From positions 1 through 31,754 of IMG/VR virus record IMGVR_UViG_3300020442_001809: DNA of 31,754 nt, one strand, 5' to 3'. The translations under genes and the position numbers were made by a program. The notes under the pieces are model-generated. The model worked only from the letters and a program-made list of their open reading frames with translations. It was not told the DNA's origin and ran no database searches. Below, piece after piece: positions 7,476-13,587 of this stretch (position 1 is the first letter of the stretch; every line of letters begins with the position of its first letter). This DNA comes from a virus.

Positions 7476-8156
7476 ATGAAGACACTCGTTGTACTAACTG
7501 GACCTCAAGGATCGGGTAACCATCTGTGGTCAAAAATCTTCTCACTACACGAGGATGTCTTTGGGTGGAAGTCTCTGCTGAACAATTATTGGGAGGCACA
7601 TAGATTCGCAGAACCTTTTGCGGAATACTGGAGAGACCCCAGTAAACTGCAAACTTTCGACTGGTCTCAATCGGAATATTACTTTACTTCTATTAGCGTC
7701 CCCCTCGGCATCAAAGAAAAAGGGACCCACTGGTGTCCAAACGTGTTGCAGTTTTGCAAGTCTGCCGAAAATATGGGGATCAAAACAAACATAGTAGTAA
7801 TTGGTCGGGATCAAACGATCCTTCACAATCAACAAAAGCGGTTGAGGGGTGAACCCACATCCAGGTACTTTCTGGATCAAATGTCTAAATTCCCCAACCC
7901 AACCTTTCTCAGTTACGAACTCCTATATCTCTACAAACAGGAGTATCTAAAGCATCTGGATGTTGGAATCCCAGTTGCCTGGTATGACGAGCGTGTGAAC
8001 GAGATTCTCAGGCGAGATGCTAATGAAAAATACATTGGATATGTTGAGCAAAACCCTTTGGACGACTGCAATAAAACAGGGTGCCCTGCACCCCTAGATC
8101 CATTCATTGAAGGACCTACAGGTCCACAACCAGAAAAGCCCACAAAGTGTTGCTGA
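7476..8156 (+). CDS. Sulfotransferase-like P-loop protein (GPQGSGNH family), copy 1
   Basis: 226 residues. The N-terminus LVVLTGPQGSGNHLWSKIFS has a strand-loop-helix like the 5'-phosphosulfate loop of PAPS sulfotransferases, but with Asn-His where P-loop kinases have Lys-Ser/Thr. VVIGRDQTILHNQQKRLRGE (about residues 107-126) resembles the 3'-phosphate-binding RDP helix, with Gln in place of Pro. It is clearly paralogous to the gene at 11753-12388: shared blocks are TGPQGSGNHL, FSLH, GW.SL..NYW, EPFA.YW, SVP, RDQ, QQ..R..GE and DAN.KY. The C-terminus is different: a GPTGPQPEKP tail with Cys residues CNKTGC and a terminal KCC. It likely binds a nucleotide and modifies a sugar, lipid or protein. 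The sulfotransferase fold is well supported, but donor and acceptor are unknown. Confidence 0.75.
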   Translation: MKTLVVLTGPQGSGNHLWSKIFSLHEDVFGWKSLLNNYWEAHRFAEPFAEYWRDPSKLQTFDWSQSEYYFTSISVPLGIKEKGTHWCPNVLQFCKSAENMGIKTNIVVIGRDQTILHNQQKRLRGEPTSRYFLDQMSKFPNPTFLSYELLYLYKQEYLKHLDVGIPVAWYDERVNEILRRDANEKYIGYVEQNPLDDCNKTGCPAPLDPFIEGPTGPQPEKPTKCC

Positions 8157-8170
8157 GTAACATCCGATTC

Positions 8171-8199
8171 TTGACACAGTGATTTTCTGCTCTTATAAT
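8171..8199 (+). promoter_or_regulatory. Consensus sigma70 promoter
   Basis: TTGACA (8171-8176), a 17-base spacer and TATAAT (8194-8199): a perfect match to the bacterial housekeeping consensus. It lies 68 bases before the DUF2061 gene. This class of promoter is used for early transcription by host polymerase in T4-like cyanophages. Confidence 0.85.
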
Positions 8200-8267: not shown

Positions 8268-8522
8268 ATGTCTTTTGCAAATCCCAAGTGGTTTGAGCGT
8301 TTTCCTCGAACCATCGCCAAGGCTGTTACCTGGCGTTCCTGGATGATGGTCACCAACTCTGTGATTGGTTGGATCGTTGCCGGTAACCCCTGGAAGGGCC
8401 TCACCATCGGTCTGATGGCACTAGTCATCAACTCGACGCTGTATCTTCTGCACGAGCGACTCTGGAACCGTAACGACTGGAACCGCCGTCAGACGACTGC
8501 CACAGATCGAGTGGTCATCTGA
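8268..8522 (+). CDS. DUF2061 small membrane protein
   Basis: 84 residues. It matches the DUF2061 family pattern: R.IAKAVTWR near residues 14-24, then two transmembrane helices (about 25-40 and 43-62) separated by GNPWKG, and the signature LYLLHERLWNR (58-68). The family is found in bacteria and recurs in cyanophages, and its biochemical role is not known. Expected location is the inner or thylakoid membrane of the host. No clear Shine-Dalgarno is seen before the ATG. It is preceded by a tandem sigma70 and late promoter and followed by the dctP gene after 70 bases, so early read-through into dctP is possible. Confidence 0.85.
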   Translation: MSFANPKWFERFPRTIAKAVTWRSWMMVTNSVIGWIVAGNPWKGLTIGLMALVINSTLYLLHERLWNRNDWNRRQTTATDRVVI

Positions 8523-8552: not shown

Positions 8553-8560
8553 CATAAATA
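8553..8560 (+). promoter_or_regulatory. T4-type late promoter (CATAAATA) for dctP
   Basis: CATAAATA on the plus strand, 32 bases before the dctP start. An AGGAG ribosome site follows at 8577-8581. Confidence 0.6.
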
Positions 8561-8592
8561 CAAGCGTGTATAGTTTAGGAGTCAAATAAGGT

Positions 8593-9564
8593 ATGAAAAA
8601 GGTACGCTGGGTATTAGCACACGAACCCATTGAACTTTTTCTTCGCGCCGCCCGCAAATTTGCTACCCTTATGGAGCAACTTGCACCGGGTGAGCTCGAT
8701 GTCGAAATTCTGACCCTTTCCGAGTATTCGGAGAAGTATAATGATGGTGAACCGGTCACCAAGCATGATCTTCTTCGTCTGATGAAGGAAGGTAAGTGTG
8801 AAATGTCCCAAATGTATACGTCCACTCTCGGACGTGCACACAACACGGACATGCGAGTTCTCGACATGCCTTTCTTGTTCCGTGACCATGACCACGCTAA
8901 GTGGGTGCTTGAGGGTGAGATTGGCAACGAACTGCTGAAAGGTCTTGACGAAGAGTCCAAAGGATTCCGCAGCGTCAAGGGTCTTGCATTCACCTATTCA
9001 GGTGGATTCCGCATGATCCCTGCCAACAAAGAGATCCACAAAATTGAAGATTTCCAAGGGCTTCCCCTCCGTTGTAACAACTCTGACATTGCCAAAGAAA
9101 CTCTGAAGGCAGTCGGTGCTGTGCCTGTTCCCATCGAACTGGAGCAGATCAACGAAGGCGTGCAAGACGGCGACATTGTGGGTGGAGAATCCACCTACCC
9201 TCGTTTCTTCGGTCTGAAGCAGAACGAGCACATGAACACGATCAACGATGCGGAGCATTCCCTGTTCCTCACCACGATCATTGTCGAGAAAGAGTTCTGG
9301 AAGACTCTCTCCAAGGAACTCAAATGCTCAATCCGTGACGCTTCCCGTGAAGCAGCACGTGCTGAGCGTGTCTGGTCCGTTGAGGACATTGACATCGTCA
9401 AGAGCAAGTGTCAAGAGGAGGACATCAATGTCGTGACTATGTCCGACGCTGAGCGTGCTCGCTTCAAGGATGCAACTGCTTACTTGTATGACAAGTTTGC
9501 TGATACCCTACCTCCTGGTATGGTCGATCGTATTCGTAAGCATGGAACTCCTGAAGAGGACTGA
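8593..9564 (+). CDS. dctP: TRAP-type C4-dicarboxylate solute-binding protein (DctP-like), no signal peptide
   Basis: 323 residues, about the length of a mature TRAP extracytoplasmic binding protein. Family landmarks are in order: LDMPFLFRDHDHAKWVLEGE (about residues 90-109), GGFRMIPANKEIHKIEDFQG (137-155), then LPLRCNNSDIAKETLKAVGA (157-176) with Arg160 in the place of the substrate-carboxylate Arg, VPVPIELEQINEGVQDGDIV (177-196) and the ESTYPRF hinge. These proteins capture organic acids for a TRAP permease. The N-terminus (MKKVRWVLAHEPIELFLRAA) starts directly with the first strand and helix of the fold and has no hydrophobic export signal, so it should stay in the cytoplasm as encoded. No permease genes are nearby. 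DctP homologues have been noted in other cyanomyoviruses. A strong terminator follows. Family assignment is firm; the role in infection is open. Confidence 0.9.
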   Translation: MKKVRWVLAHEPIELFLRAARKFATLMEQLAPGELDVEILTLSEYSEKYNDGEPVTKHDLLRLMKEGKCEMSQMYTSTLGRAHNTDMRVLDMPFLFRDHDHAKWVLEGEIGNELLKGLDEESKGFRSVKGLAFTYSGGFRMIPANKEIHKIEDFQGLPLRCNNSDIAKETLKAVGAVPVPIELEQINEGVQDGDIVGGESTYPRFFGLKQNEHMNTINDAEHSLFLTTIIVEKEFWKTLSKELKCSIRDASREAARAERVWSVEDIDIVKSKCQEEDINVVTMSDAERARFKDATAYLYDKFADTLPPGMVDRIRKHGTPEED

Positions 9565-9587: not shown

Positions 9588-9612
9588 GGCAGGCGTTATG
9601 CCTGCCTTTTTT
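9588..9612 (+). terminator. Rho-independent terminator after dctP
   Basis: Perfect 7-bp stem GGCAGGC/GCCTGCC with a 5-base GTTAT loop (9588-9606) followed by six T (9607-9612). It lies 23 bases past the dctP stop and directly before the next gene. Confidence 0.9.
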
Positions 9613-9625
9613 ATTGAGTAATTTT

Positions 9626-10753
9626 ATGGCACTGAATCAAAGTAATAATACCATATTACATAAATTTGAGTGGGACTCGATTTATGCTGCTAGGCAAGTA
9701 TGCTTTGGAGCAAATGATCCTAGACGCAAATTATATTACTATGATGAAGAAAATTATCTGAACATGTATTTTTCTACTCGCATGATTTGCCGTGCGAAGA
9801 AAATACCAAACAAGAGAAATTATAAAATCCTTTCCCCCCTTCCTGATAATTTTCAGACAGCTATGTCCTTCGGGGACTGTTGTGTAGATTCTGCTACAAG
9901 GATTCTTAGTAAGTTAGATAATAGAACTCTAAACTTGATGTGGTCTGGTGGTATTGATAGTACCGTTGTGTTTTGGGCACTCGTCGGCACTGGATATCCT
10001 TTCCACATTCACTTTGATAACACGGCACAGATAGAGCACCCTGAGTTGTGGGAGCGTATTCATAACAACGAATTCAAACAGATTACTCTTTGCAATACTG
10101 AAGAGGGTGCTGGGATAATTCCTCGAACTCACAACCCAGAACATGTATTTGTCATGGGCGAACCTGGTGATAATATCCATGGTGCTGGTAGATGTTTTCT
10201 ATTTGACAAAGAAGAAAGAAACAAACCATATCAATACAATGCACCAGACTGGGTAGTCGCACATCTTGAACCATCAGTCAACGTGGTTCTCAATGACCCA
10301 AACTGCAATCTAAAGCAGTGGCACTGGGCATGGAGTTTCATGTGTAAGTATCAATACTGCTGCATTCGTTCAATCAAGAATTTCAATTTGTGTCCCTATC
10401 CTAGGTTTGATAGAGCACCAAATATGATGCTGTTCTATGACACTCCAAACTTCAATAGGTGGTCCATCACTAATCAAACAGAAAACAGTTCCTGGCAAGA
10501 ACTTCGTGAGTATAAAATGCCTGCCAAGGACTTTATTCTTGCTTCCGGCGATTCCCAACACTATCGCGATAACAAACTAAAGGTTCCCTCATCCAACAGA
10601 GCACGTCTCAACATGTTCGATAAACCTATGCCTGGGTTTGAACCAGATCAAGATTGGATGTTAGTTATCAAGAGGACCTTTGGTGGAACAGCACCTGATA
10701 TCATGTATGATGGGGAAAGCGTTACTTCAAAAGATTGTAAAGGTCTCCCCTAA
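9626..10753 (+). CDS. Asparagine-synthase-like PP-loop protein
   Basis: 375 residues from the ATG at 9626; a TTG at 9614 in frame would add four residues. LNLMWSGGIDSTVVFWAL (residues 102-119) holds the SGGxDS pyrophosphate loop of N-type ATP-pyrophosphatases. The preceding helix (FGDCCVDSATRIL) and the later VMGEPGDNIHGAG (about 176-188) resemble the segment before the PP-loop and the GEGxDE-type loop of asparagine synthase. No N-terminal glutaminase domain is present; the first 80 residues are not recognised. FDNTAQIEHPELWE after the loop is also reminiscent of PAPS-reductase-type enzymes, so the subfamily is uncertain. Expected chemistry is adenylation of a substrate with release of pyrophosphate. 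No ribosome site is evident, since the dctP terminator ends 13 bases upstream. Its stop overlaps the stop of the convergent sulfotransferase. Confidence 0.8.
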   Translation: MALNQSNNTILHKFEWDSIYAARQVCFGANDPRRKLYYYDEENYLNMYFSTRMICRAKKIPNKRNYKILSPLPDNFQTAMSFGDCCVDSATRILSKLDNRTLNLMWSGGIDSTVVFWALVGTGYPFHIHFDNTAQIEHPELWERIHNNEFKQITLCNTEEGAGIIPRTHNPEHVFVMGEPGDNIHGAGRCFLFDKEERNKPYQYNAPDWVVAHLEPSVNVVLNDPNCNLKQWHWAWSFMCKYQYCCIRSIKNFNLCPYPRFDRAPNMMLFYDTPNFNRWSITNQTENSSWQELREYKMPAKDFILASGDSQHYRDNKLKVPSSNRARLNMFDKPMPGFEPDQDWMLVIKRTFGGTAPDIMYDGESVTSKDCKGLP

Positions 10754-11754
10754 TTTGAGAATCGATCCCAGAAGTAAGAATCAATATATTCAGTGCTGTA
10801 TAGTCCTGGGTGATTAGTGAAGTCCACATATAATTTACCATCAACTTTACGGTAAGTTCCCTCCTTGATATTCTCTTCACGTATACCTGTTATGGGCAGT
10901 GAGCAGGTCTCTTCATAATTTACTGGGACTCCCCATTCTTCAACATCCCACCCCTCATAGTGGTCACTCATAATATCTTTGTACTCATAGTATTGTTTCT
11001 CGGTCATATTGAACTGATCTGATGACCATTGATCTTTTTGATATTGATATCTGACTGCTTTGTTTCCTCTATCAGGATAATATAAGTTTGGAGCAAATTC
11101 AGTCTGTCCAAATAACTCATTCAGCAGTTGTGTTTTCCCTGCCCACACCTCCTCCATGATTAGGACGTGTACAGGACACACTTTTCTTGCATTTTCAATA
11201 ACTTTATGATATGGTTGTAGGTTTGAAAATTTTATTTTAGCAGCAGAGTGAATATCACTAAACTGTTTTACATCATCAAGTATCTTCGAGTAATTATTCC
11301 ATCCATAATTCAACCAAGACCATGCTCTCCGTACAGGATCTCTACATACTATGAGAGCACTAACGTCAAATTCTTTGCTGAGTGCTCTGAGTAACCGCTG
11401 TGTAAAATCAGCGTCTAGTTTATAGTTACTATTAGACCAATCAACTAATACGTCTCTACCATATCCCCTACTATCCCACAGACTTTTGTAGTAATCAACA
11501 TATTTCTGTATAGACCAGTTACTAAAATCTGGAAAAGATGTTACAATCTCTCCAGAGTCAGAACCAAATTTCTGGTACCAAGAAATCTTCGCTTCACATC
11601 TCTCTAGTTTCTTTTCATCACCAAGGTGTTGAGTAAAGTCTGCCAAATGATGTTCTTTTGCAACTCCACTCGTCACCCTATGACGAACCATTTTATACAA
11701 TGGACTCGACGCCGAAAACGCTGTTCCTAAAAAAAATATAAATTTGGGTTTCAT
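10750..11754 (-). CDS. Sulfotransferase (PAPS-type)
   Basis: 334 residues from the ATG at 11754; an earlier start would add seven residues and run into the divergent gene. The N-terminal FIFFLGTAFSASSPLYKMVR (about residues 5-24) is the 5'-phosphosulfate-binding strand-loop-helix. ALIVCRDPVRRAWSWLNYGW is the 3'-phosphate-binding motif with the RDP and a Ser on the following helix. VHVLIMEEV then fits the strand and acidic residue that usually precede the second half of the fold. Proteins of this family transfer sulfate from PAPS to sugars, lipids or tyrosines. The gene is AT-rich: bases 11221-11280 are 28% GC by hand count, far below the fibre gene next door, which suggests a separate origin. 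Acceptor is unknown. Confidence 0.85.
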   Translation of the reverse strand: MKPKFIFFLGTAFSASSPLYKMVRHRVTSGVAKEHHLADFTQHLGDEKKLERCEAKISWYQKFGSDSGEIVTSFPDFSNWSIQKYVDYYKSLWDSRGYGRDVLVDWSNSNYKLDADFTQRLLRALSKEFDVSALIVCRDPVRRAWSWLNYGWNNYSKILDDVKQFSDIHSAAKIKFSNLQPYHKVIENARKVCPVHVLIMEEVWAGKTQLLNELFGQTEFAPNLYYPDRGNKAVRYQYQKDQWSSDQFNMTEKQYYEYKDIMSDHYEGWDVEEWGVPVNYEETCSLPITGIREENIKEGTYRKVDGKLYVDFTNHPGLYSTEYIDSYFWDRFSN

Positions 11755-12388
11755 GAAAAGACTTCTTATCACCACTGGACCACAGGGGTCAGGAAATCAT
11801 TTATTAGCTCGTGTATTTAGTCTGCACTCTGCCGTTGTAGGGTGGGAATCACTGAAAACTAATTACTGGGTTCCTAGTGATCAAGAACCCTTTGCCAAAT
11901 ACTGGGTATATCCTGACCAACTAGAGTTCCCTGATGGTGAGTTCTTTCTCGCTAACGTCAGTGTCCCTTTCTTCTACGATGGTGTACGGCAGACACCAAA
12001 GATCGTAGAGGTGTGCCATCAGGCAATGCACATGGGGTATGAACCTGTCGTTGCAATTATCTGCAGAGATCAGAATATCAACGCTGTGCAACAACAAAGG
12101 GTCGGAGGGGAAGTGACCCTACCGACCGCTAAGGAGTATTACAGATTGCTGTTAGATGATCCTTATATTGAAACTCACTTCCTATCCCATGAATCATTCT
12201 TCATGTGGAAGGAAGACTATATCAAATACATTGGGCACCAACTAAAGTTCCCTGTAACGACCGAAGGCATCGACCAGTTCATAACCGGCGATGCCAACGG
12301 AAAGTATGTAAGTCCCGTCGAAGACCATTGGTTAGACGAGACTATTAGAGAAGGTCGTCAGACCTTCAGACAACGGCGAGGGGAGTAG
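11753..12388 (+). CDS. Sulfotransferase-like P-loop protein (GPQGSGNH family), copy 2
   Basis: 211 residues from the ATG at 11753, chosen because MKRLLITTGPQGSGNHLLAR aligns with the start of the copy at 7476 (MKTLVVLTGPQGSGNHLWSK). It has the same order of blocks: FSLH, GWESLKTNYW, EPFAKYW, NVSVPF, then AIICRDQNINAVQQQRVGGE as the likely 3'-phosphate-binding helix, FLSHESFFMWKEDYIKYI and GDANGKYVSPV. It lacks the Cys-rich tail of copy 1 and ends in a basic RRGE. Its start codon shares the CATG palindrome with the divergent sulfotransferase. Its 3' end overlaps the convergent ferritin-like gene by 23 bases. The fold call is by motif; function is unknown. Confidence 0.75.
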   Translation: MKRLLITTGPQGSGNHLLARVFSLHSAVVGWESLKTNYWVPSDQEPFAKYWVYPDQLEFPDGEFFLANVSVPFFYDGVRQTPKIVEVCHQAMHMGYEPVVAIICRDQNINAVQQQRVGGEVTLPTAKEYYRLLLDDPYIETHFLSHESFFMWKEDYIKYIGHQLKFPVTTEGIDQFITGDANGKYVSPVEDHWLDETIREGRQTFRQRRGE

Positions 12389-13040
12389 CGGTGTTCTTGG
12401 CACTGATCTCCAGGAGGTCAGCACGCATTTGCTCAACCAGAGCAAGAACACGATCCTGCAGTTCTGCACTGCCTTCCACCAAACGACTCAGGGCACGGCC
12501 ACCGAGGTTGGAGTGGAAACCTTCATCCTTAGCGATGGAGGCATAGCGGGTGGAGATGAAGGAATCTTCGACGCACTCAGCCATTTCAGACCAGACTGCT
12601 TCTGCACGACCTTCAGCAACGAGCTGATAGGCAGCGAGGGCAGCGGGATCTTCAGCAGCTTCATACTTCTCAAGCAGGGAAGCACCCTTTGCCTGAGGAG
12701 CGGCGGCTTCAGCAGCGAAAGCAGCAGCAACATCCAGTTCTTCACCAGTGATGTGCTCGATCACTTCCTTCACCATACGGAAGTGCTTTGCTTCGTCAAG
12801 TGCTTGCTTGCTCAGCAGTTCAAGATCACGCACATCGGTGCTGGGATCGGCAGATGCCACTTGACCAGCGATGGCGTACATGTTTTGTGCTTCGTTGACC
12901 ATACGGCCACGGAAGTGCTCGACGAGATACTCGTCACTAGGGGAAGAAGCGAAGAAACGACGAACGTTCTTCCTGGAAGCCTCGAACAACTCCCGATTAC
13001 CTTCCTTGATCTTCTTTACGAAATCGGTTCCAGAAAGCAT
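12366..13040 (-). CDS. Ferritin-like di-iron four-helix protein
   Basis: 224 residues from the ATG at 13040, which has a good AAAGGAAA ribosome site. An upstream in-frame ATG at 13073 is rejected because it lies in the promoter. The sequence is helical and has the classic di-iron ligand spacing: Glu50 (VNEAQNMY), Glu83 and His86 (DEAKH), Glu143 (AEGRAE) and Glu173 and His176 (DEGFH). This is the E...ExxH...E...ExxH signature of ferritin-like oxidases, hydroxylases and rubrerythrin-type proteins. An Ala-rich stretch (about residues 104-120) joins the two halves. The substrate is not evident; candidates are small-molecule hydroxylation or peroxide handling. It is coupled to the methyltransferase upstream, whose last codons carry its promoter. 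Confidence 0.8.
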   Translation of the reverse strand: MLSGTDFVKKIKEGNRELFEASRKNVRRFFASSPSDEYLVEHFRGRMVNEAQNMYAIAGQVASADPSTDVRDLELLSKQALDEAKHFRMVKEVIEHITGEELDVAAAFAAEAAAPQAKGASLLEKYEAAEDPAALAAYQLVAEGRAEAVWSEMAECVEDSFISTRYASIAKDEGFHSNLGGRALSRLVEGSAELQDRVLALVEQMRADLLEISAKNTATPLAVV

Positions 13041-13059
13041 TGTGGATTTCCTTTCTACT

Positions 13060-13587
13060 TTAGTATTTAGCATAGTGAAAAAAATACCTGAGATGCCCTT
13101 GGGAAGTGTGTTCTTCCTTCAGTAATGTCAAATTATAATGGTATTCTTCAGCAATTTTATTTATCTTGTCGGTCGTCCAATCGTACCATGTAATCCCTCC
13201 AATATCATCGTTTGCCCAATCATGGGTGATGCCTGGATTGACTCTAAAGATGATATCTTTCAAAAATAACTTGTCCAGCATATCGATCTGACGGTCGATA
13301 TTTTTCTCATCTCCAAAGTTGATTGATCCTAAACAAAGGACTACATCGGCAGGAGGGAATTCATACTGATAGTATTCTTCCAGAGACATATGGAGATGTG
13401 CCTCTTCATTGTAGGGGTCAATACCTACCAACCCCGGTATACGGTCTCTGAGGCGGTTGTAACCGCATCCGACATCCAATACGCTTGAAGGTGATAACTG
13501 CTTGACATAATCGACTACAGCGTCTCCTGAGTATTTCAGTTGACCCACATAGTCATCCTTCCAAATCCCACCGAAATAAGAATCCAT
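13060..13587 (-). CDS. SAM-dependent methyltransferase (class I)
   Basis: 175 residues. Motif I is SVLDVGCGYNRLRDRI (residues 35-50). The acidic residue that binds the SAM ribose is Asp57 in VGIDPYN, and a motif IV-like strand is ADVVLCLGSINFG (80-92). The C-terminal part has ITWYDWTTDKINKIAEEY. The protein is short for the fold and may recognise a small substrate; no DNA-methyltransferase (N/D)PP(Y/F) motif is seen. Its start overlaps the stop of the preceding small gene as TAATG, and it is followed by the ferritin-like gene. The two enzymes may act in one pathway, which is inference. Confidence 0.85.
   Translation of the reverse strand: MDSYFGGIWKDDYVGQLKYSGDAVVDYVKQLSPSSVLDVGCGYNRLRDRIPGLVGIDPYNEEAHLHMSLEEYYQYEFPPADVVLCLGSINFGDEKNIDRQIDMLDKLFLKDIIFRVNPGITHDWANDDIGGITWYDWTTDKINKIAEEYHYNLTLLKEEHTSQGHLRYFFHYAKY
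13063..13070 (-). promoter_or_regulatory. T4-type late promoter for ferritin-like gene
   Basis: Minus-strand CTAAATAC, read in the methyltransferase as GCT AAA TAC just before its TAA stop. It lies 23 bases upstream of the ferritin-like start and decides against the earlier ATG at 13073. Confidence 0.6.

Follow-up and report, generated by a model that had tools for sequence, protein, structure and literature searches.

Solute-binding proteins (SBPs) are described, in a passage of PMC9602780, as sited in the extracytosolic space. The question raised here is where such a protein would work when a virus encodes it without an export signal. The protein concerned belongs to the DctP family of tripartite ATP-independent periplasmic (TRAP) transporters and is encoded in a 31.8-kb virus record (IMG/VR record IMGVR_UViG_3300020442_001809; the whole analysed stretch of 31,754 nucleotides (nt) is called the window). 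An original prediction, made from the window sequence, held that this protein lacks an export signal, begins directly with the mature fold, keeps the ligand arginine and may act in the cytoplasm as a metabolite sink or sensor. The features on which the analysis is built are:

8593-9564, + strand: signal-less DctP-family solute-binding protein, 323 amino acids (aa), assigned by Pfam, fold and start check
8587-8589, + strand: in-frame stop TAA, two codons 5' of the ATG, read from the DNA; relatives are alike
9010-9012, + strand: codon of Arg140, the second arginine, present in 25/25 viral rows and aligned with an Arg of PDB DctPs
9070-9072, + strand: codon of Arg160, likely SiaP Arg147, present in 25/25 viral rows, on strand 158-161

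The open reading frame (ORF) is intact from ATG through stop. PF03480 matched residues 17-303 (E 3.2e-46) with 158.4 bits, against a curated cut-off of 23.4, and the match to NCBIfam TRAP_S1 also exceeded its cut-off. An AlphaFold2 model calculated with 44 relatives as input had a mean predicted local distance difference test score (pLDDT) of 95.1. When this model was searched with Foldseek, the top E value was 2.5e-25 and the top solved structures were TRAP binding proteins; VIA-align gave Z up to 35.9 across ~300 residues. PF03480, the two-lobed fold and the carboxylate-binding Arg are thus common to the window protein and DctP-type TRAP SBPs (SiaP, TeaA, 4xfe, 4n8y). Unlike these, the window protein has no signal peptide, is phage-borne and is linked to a PP-loop gene, with no DctQM found nearby.

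The N-terminus of the window protein, MKKVRWVLAHEPIELFLRAARKF, has no hydrophobic core. Within the first 35 residues the top 10-residue Kyte-Doolittle mean was 0.91, compared to 1.97-3.32 by the same measure in 11 cellular relatives, each of which has 28-54 extra N-terminal residues. In the model, beta-strand 1 is formed by residues 2-8, and in structural alignment residues 1-2 coincide with the first two residues of the mature TeaA and SiaP chains (2vpn, 2cex), in support of the predicted start at the mature N-terminus. As judged from its sequence, the protein lacks the export signal of a functional TRAP binding protein. The gene is preceded by TAA (8587-8589), then GGT, then the ATG at 8593, with AGGAG at 8577-8581. 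Because this in-frame TAA lies two codons 5' of the ATG, an upstream start that adds a signal is ruled out for the window protein.

A family-wide pattern

An IMG/VR scan yielded 55 loci, and a profile scan 312 stretches encoding a relative; 80 of these were retained, and three further scans added loci to the set of DctP relatives. With 312 candidate stretches, the missing signal is not the peculiarity of one odd gene, as had first been assumed, but a family trait. Signal-less DctP is a large family that occurs in many uncultured aquatic phages.

At 152/152 start sites in viral loci (86 distinct start regions), an in-frame stop lies 5' and an ATG is found 4-7 codons before the shared motif, and none has an export signal. 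An upstream start with a signal was thus rejected for the viral relatives as well as for the window. These 152 sites were read from the DNA, whereas several rows of a 44-row N-terminus comparison began at the tblastn match and a few of them thus lacked the true first residues; in that comparison the DctP N-termini were bimodal. An earlier start-site reading had covered 52/55 loci, with L051, L052 and L054 left out. Five loci lie outside the motif: L054, which is cut, and the divergent L180-L183 (39% identical to L076), which also start without a signal. In L146 and L177 (2/152 sites) an in-frame hydrophobic stretch lies farther upstream, reachable from distant starts only; an upstream start there is unsupported, though not disproved.

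Both arginines are invariant in 25/25 viral rows, so that the predicted retention of Arg160 holds throughout the viral family. Arg140 is presumably SiaP Arg127, judged from the alignment. Cellular rows with signal-like N-termini have Arg140 in 9/11 and Arg160 in 7/11 cases. In the model Arg160 falls on the sixth strand (residues 158-161), and it is equated with SiaP Arg147 by alignment to PDB DctPs, not residue by residue to SiaP. Arg147 sits on strand 6 of SiaP, according to a passage of PMC5812351. According to excerpts of PMC4646407, high affinity of SiaP requires it and it provides the selectivity for carboxylates; this Arg is found in 98% of DctP-type SBPs and restricts TRAP SBPs to carboxylates. 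The pairwise ratio of nonsynonymous to synonymous substitution rates (dN/dS) among DctP relatives was 0.04-0.19. Together with the invariant arginines, this indicates that the pocket is under purifying selection and not in decay.

With the export tag lost and the pocket kept, the window DctP very probably acts within the infected cell. The cytoplasmic part of the original prediction therefore stands: with neither a signal nor a usable upstream start, the protein is very probably cytoplasmic and not for TRAP uptake.

A second, divergent DctP-like protein was observed at L003:8538-9599 and in L004-L006. It has 353 aa and no signal, is encoded upstream of DUF2061 and DctP, and by eye has a Lys where the ligand Arg would be.

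Cellular relatives and loss of the signal

Genome contigs contributed 23 loci encoding DctP relatives. In Bdellovibrionota and a few other relatives, 28-54 residues with a hydrophobic core precede the same mature start, and in L104 the extra segment holds a lipobox-like motif. From their sequence, these extra segments are read as signal peptides. The Bdellovibrionota proteins (L089-L094, L097, L100) are 39-46% identical to the window DctP and share the start of the mature part, W[VL]LAH[ED]P; they differ from it in their N-terminal extension. Several of them adjoin AMP-ligase, MBOAT and ABC-transporter-like genes, and a PP-loop gene is absent within 4 kb.

In a tree of 46 rows, 25 viral and 6 signal-less proteins from metagenome-assembled genomes (MAGs) formed one branch with a support of 99/99. 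Since a single supported signal-less branch makes one loss the simplest history, the signal would most simply have been lost a single time, ahead of the diversification of the phage clade. L096, L101 and L105 are signal-less yet fall outside the 31-row branch, so that more than one loss is possible.

The surroundings of the cellular genes vary. In L089, L090, L097 and L100 a DctP with a signal-like N-terminus has AMP-ligase, MBOAT, SBP and ABC-transporter-like genes close by, though not every locus has them all; the arrangement resembles a Dlt-type cluster and has no adjacent DctQM. The signal-less DctP genes of L096 and L105, in Myxococcota and Planctomycetota contigs, stand beside ABC-transporter-like genes. 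In the bacterial loci L084, L087 and L095 a gene for a major facilitator superfamily (MFS) transporter, a cluster 79 gene and a signal-less DctP gene stand in a row.

Linkage to PP-loop genes and possible roles

The following elements flank the DctP gene in the window:

9626-10753, + strand: PP-loop protein, proposed partner, with SGGIDS at 9944-9961; the ORF is listed from TTG 9614
8268-8522, + strand: DUF2061 small membrane protein, 84 aa, upstream neighbour (PF09834, E 3.6e-13)
8554-8560, + strand: ATAAATA, T4-type late-promoter-like, 39 nt 5' of the ATG, found by motif search
8171-8199, + strand: sigma-70-like promoter, 12/12 matches, upstream of DUF2061
9588-9606, + strand: intrinsic-terminator-like hairpin with a T run, 3' of the DctP gene

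Clustering of the neighbouring genes showed that DUF2061 (42 loci) and PP-loop proteins are the usual company of DctP. In 25/29 viral representatives a PP-loop ORF is found no more than 4 kb away; the 29 rows include two copies from L074 and the divergent paralogue of L003. The same holds for 1/6 signal-less MAG rows and for 0/12 rows of the set labelled SEC, which includes the signal-less L096 and L093 twice; L088, L099 and L105, whose DctP ORFs had not been called, are not among the rows counted. The density of PP-loop ORFs was 34 per 344 kb near DctP versus 10 per 373 kb far from it (binomial p 1e-4). All PP-loop ORFs found in G006 (133 kb, 2/2) and G001 (85 kb, 1/1) directly follow DctP; in G001 the DctP gene spans a piece boundary and its place was taken from the neighbour listing. 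In about a dozen loci the DctP and PP-loop genes share 4 nt, and in the window the two are spaced by 49-61 nt, depending on the start chosen.

The SGGxDS motif of the PP-loop protein is present as SGGIDS and invariant in 11 rows. The window protein was modelled at pLDDT 88.6, and the model has a synthetase fold, with Z 10.6-12.9 to asparagine, beta-lactam and carbapenam synthetases and 7.2 to GMP synthetase; its Foldseek match was weak (E 7e-4, template modelling score (TM) 0.31). Asparagine, beta-lactam and carbapenam synthetases activate carboxylates. The window protein has the SGGIDS PP-loop and the synthetase-domain fold in common with them; unlike them, it has no recognised glutaminase domain. 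There was no Pfam match at E 0.01 and no NCBIfam match at 0.05, and the protein is therefore not filed as an asparagine-synthetase-type member.

The reading tentatively preferred here, at somewhat less than even confidence, is that of a cytoplasmic, carboxylate-binding DctP that serves the adjacent PP-loop ligase, with no TRAP membrane partner found nearby. DctP would stay in the cytoplasm of the infected cell with its two-lobed carboxylate-binding fold and both arginines retained. There it would most likely bind a carboxylate metabolite, and it may hold the bound acid or pass it to the adjoining PP-loop, asparagine-synthetase-like ligase. DUF2061 could perhaps place the pair near the membrane. 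The partnership and the delivery of a substrate are inferred from the linkage and from the chemistry of the related synthetases.

Several observations weigh against this reading. The terminator-like hairpin lies between the DctP and PP-loop genes of the window, so that the two need not be co-transcribed there. The near/far comparison pools related loci, and in G008 3/4 PP-loop ORFs lie elsewhere and not after DctP. No PP-loop ORF was found within 4 kb in 4/29 viral representatives (one of these, L058, has nearly no downstream sequence), and the signal-less bacterial loci L084, L087 and L095 have the MFS and cluster 79 genes instead. The PP-loop families next to DctP vary (clusters 1, 37, 77 and 88), clusters 1 and 37 align around the motif only, and the families tested had no Pfam match above the cut-off.

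The wider neighbourhood of DctP in L073, L079 and L085 also includes AMP-ligase, SDR, BKACE and desaturase genes; L073 has radical-SAM and Rieske genes as well. A wider proposal, which is doubtful, would make these proteins an intracellular TRAP-type class: a DctP of phages and some bacteria, its export lost in one event, would have become a subunit that captures a carboxylate and presents it as substrate within a PP-loop amide ligase system. Together with DUF2061 and, where the phages are larger, with AMP-ligase, BKACE, SDR, desaturase and radical-SAM genes, it would form a phage-borne small-molecule pathway. The region L073:1583-17478, L079 and L085 (phage contigs and a MAG contig) was also seen to hold a dense enzyme cluster with several PP-loop proteins and the cluster 38 family.

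That DctP is a metabolite sponge or sensor, soaking up a host carboxylate or a carboxylate-bearing immune signal with no enzymatic partner, is unlikely. The absent signal and conserved ligand pocket fit such a role, as do the promoter-like elements and terminator that bound the window gene and the 4/29 representatives lacking a nearby PP-loop ORF. The linkage and the enzyme-rich clusters speak rather for a protein that handles a ligand within an enzymatic pathway. In addition, PADLOC at E 0.01 gave no match for the window DctP (P0001) or its two window neighbours, and relatives are found in bacterial loci with no visible defence gene. The sink or sensor role of the original prediction is thus less favoured.

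A turn from binding protein to enzyme, with the pocket catalysing a step in the pathway of the PP-loop enzyme, is considered quite unlikely. In its favour, the N-terminal residues 5-20 of the viral rows show higher conservation than the remainder (mean majority fraction 0.93 vs 0.69). However, most relatives with signal-like N-termini keep the same pocket residues, so that no new catalytic residue is evident, and TRAP binding proteins are the closest among solved structures.

It is improbable that the DctP fold serves in morphogenesis or in the virion, whether as a structural component or as a protein carried in with the particle. One argument for this is the late-type element. The T4 late consensus is TATAAATA, and ATAAATA occurs within 70 nt of the start in 54/56 loci (11 nearest groups) versus 96/715 other ORFs (Fisher p 4.5e-10 on groups, with a background that is not de-duplicated), as it does before clusters 17, 22 and 34, read as late structural genes. 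Overall it was found in 18/29 viral groups. In L040, moreover, DctP sits among presumed neck and packaging genes. However, L003 and L019 carry the cassette in a region of presumed replication genes; a scaffold would not need conserved ligand arginines, and relatives occur in bacterial loci. Of the 16 relatives examined, just two, L001 and L002, have retained the sigma-70-like promoter.

An ordinary periplasmic TRAP binding protein, relying on non-classical export or on DctQM of the host, is very improbable. Such a protein would have the full DctP fold and ligand Arg seen here, and record G008 does encode DctM. However, no viral start site provides a signal, and the DctM of G008 adjoins its own binding protein, which is NMT1/TAXI-like with a signal-like N-terminus. 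Among 22 viral records, which may be fragments and whose hosts were not searched, DctQ was found in 0/22 and DctM in 1/22. DctM is present somewhere in 12/17 cellular genomes behind the genome-contig loci searched; in the control set, Synechococcus elongatus was not among the genomes matching DctP or DctM. TctC-like proteins with hydrophobic, signal-like N-termini adjoin DctP in L053, L073 and L075, and together with the NMT1/TAXI-like protein they indicate that these phages appear able to encode exported binding proteins, from which DctP differs. At L040:14199-16461 in G008, the DctM permease (PF06808, E 1.9e-56) by the NMT1/TAXI-like protein is a possible phage-borne TRAP-TAXI transporter in its own right.

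That the gene is decaying, or was mis-called with its start cut short, can practically be dismissed, given the low dN/dS, the invariant pocket and the same start in 86 distinct start regions.

Near the DctP gene, the products of three window genes at 7476-8156, 10750-11775 and 11744-12388 look by eye like P-loop sulfotransferases, with no Pfam sulfotransferase match at E 0.01, and a 235-aa protein at 12366-13073 (-) has a weak PaaA_PaaC match under the cut-off.

Occurrence, earlier descriptions and meaning

Another window protein, whose relatives carry the annotation gp8 baseplate wedge, shares 65% identity with that of a single-cell marine virus and ~53% with that of cyanophage S-SM2. psbA/psbD-type genes are present in 4/13 longer records carrying DctP relatives, and for this reason the near relatives are probably cyanophages; no such genes were found in G008 or in the large records tested. 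No tRNAs were found in the window or in 18 pieces from three records. When presence in cultured phages was assessed with 50,697 phage records, the window DctP (P0001) matched 6 distant records with 23-26% identity, and the PP-loop neighbour and DUF2061 matched 0 records each.

Two uncultured-phage fragments in BFVD, 54% and 36% identical, are named 'TRAP transporter solute receptor DctP/TeaA', so that single genes of this kind had already been annotated before. Ralstonia jumbo phages RP12 and RP31 have a gene annotated as TRAP solute receptor beside ABC transporter subunits, as stated in an excerpt of PMC5468394. An RP12 protein, perhaps another ORF, appeared weakly in the BFVD fold search (E 1.4e-3, TM 0.39, 9% identity). 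In the open-licence PMC literature no paper was recognised, among the matches listed, as describing a phage or signal-less DctP. PMC9146016 was rejected as such a paper, as 'dctp' in the matching passage is the nucleotide, and the excerpt of PMC12285232 does not mention TRAP.

Automatic annotation of signal-less phage DctP genes as transport or uptake genes would mislead. A large, selected phage family in which the signal was dropped and the pocket kept suggests that the fold was recruited to the cytoplasm, and its link with a ligase-like gene offers the signal-less DctP a concrete, testable job.
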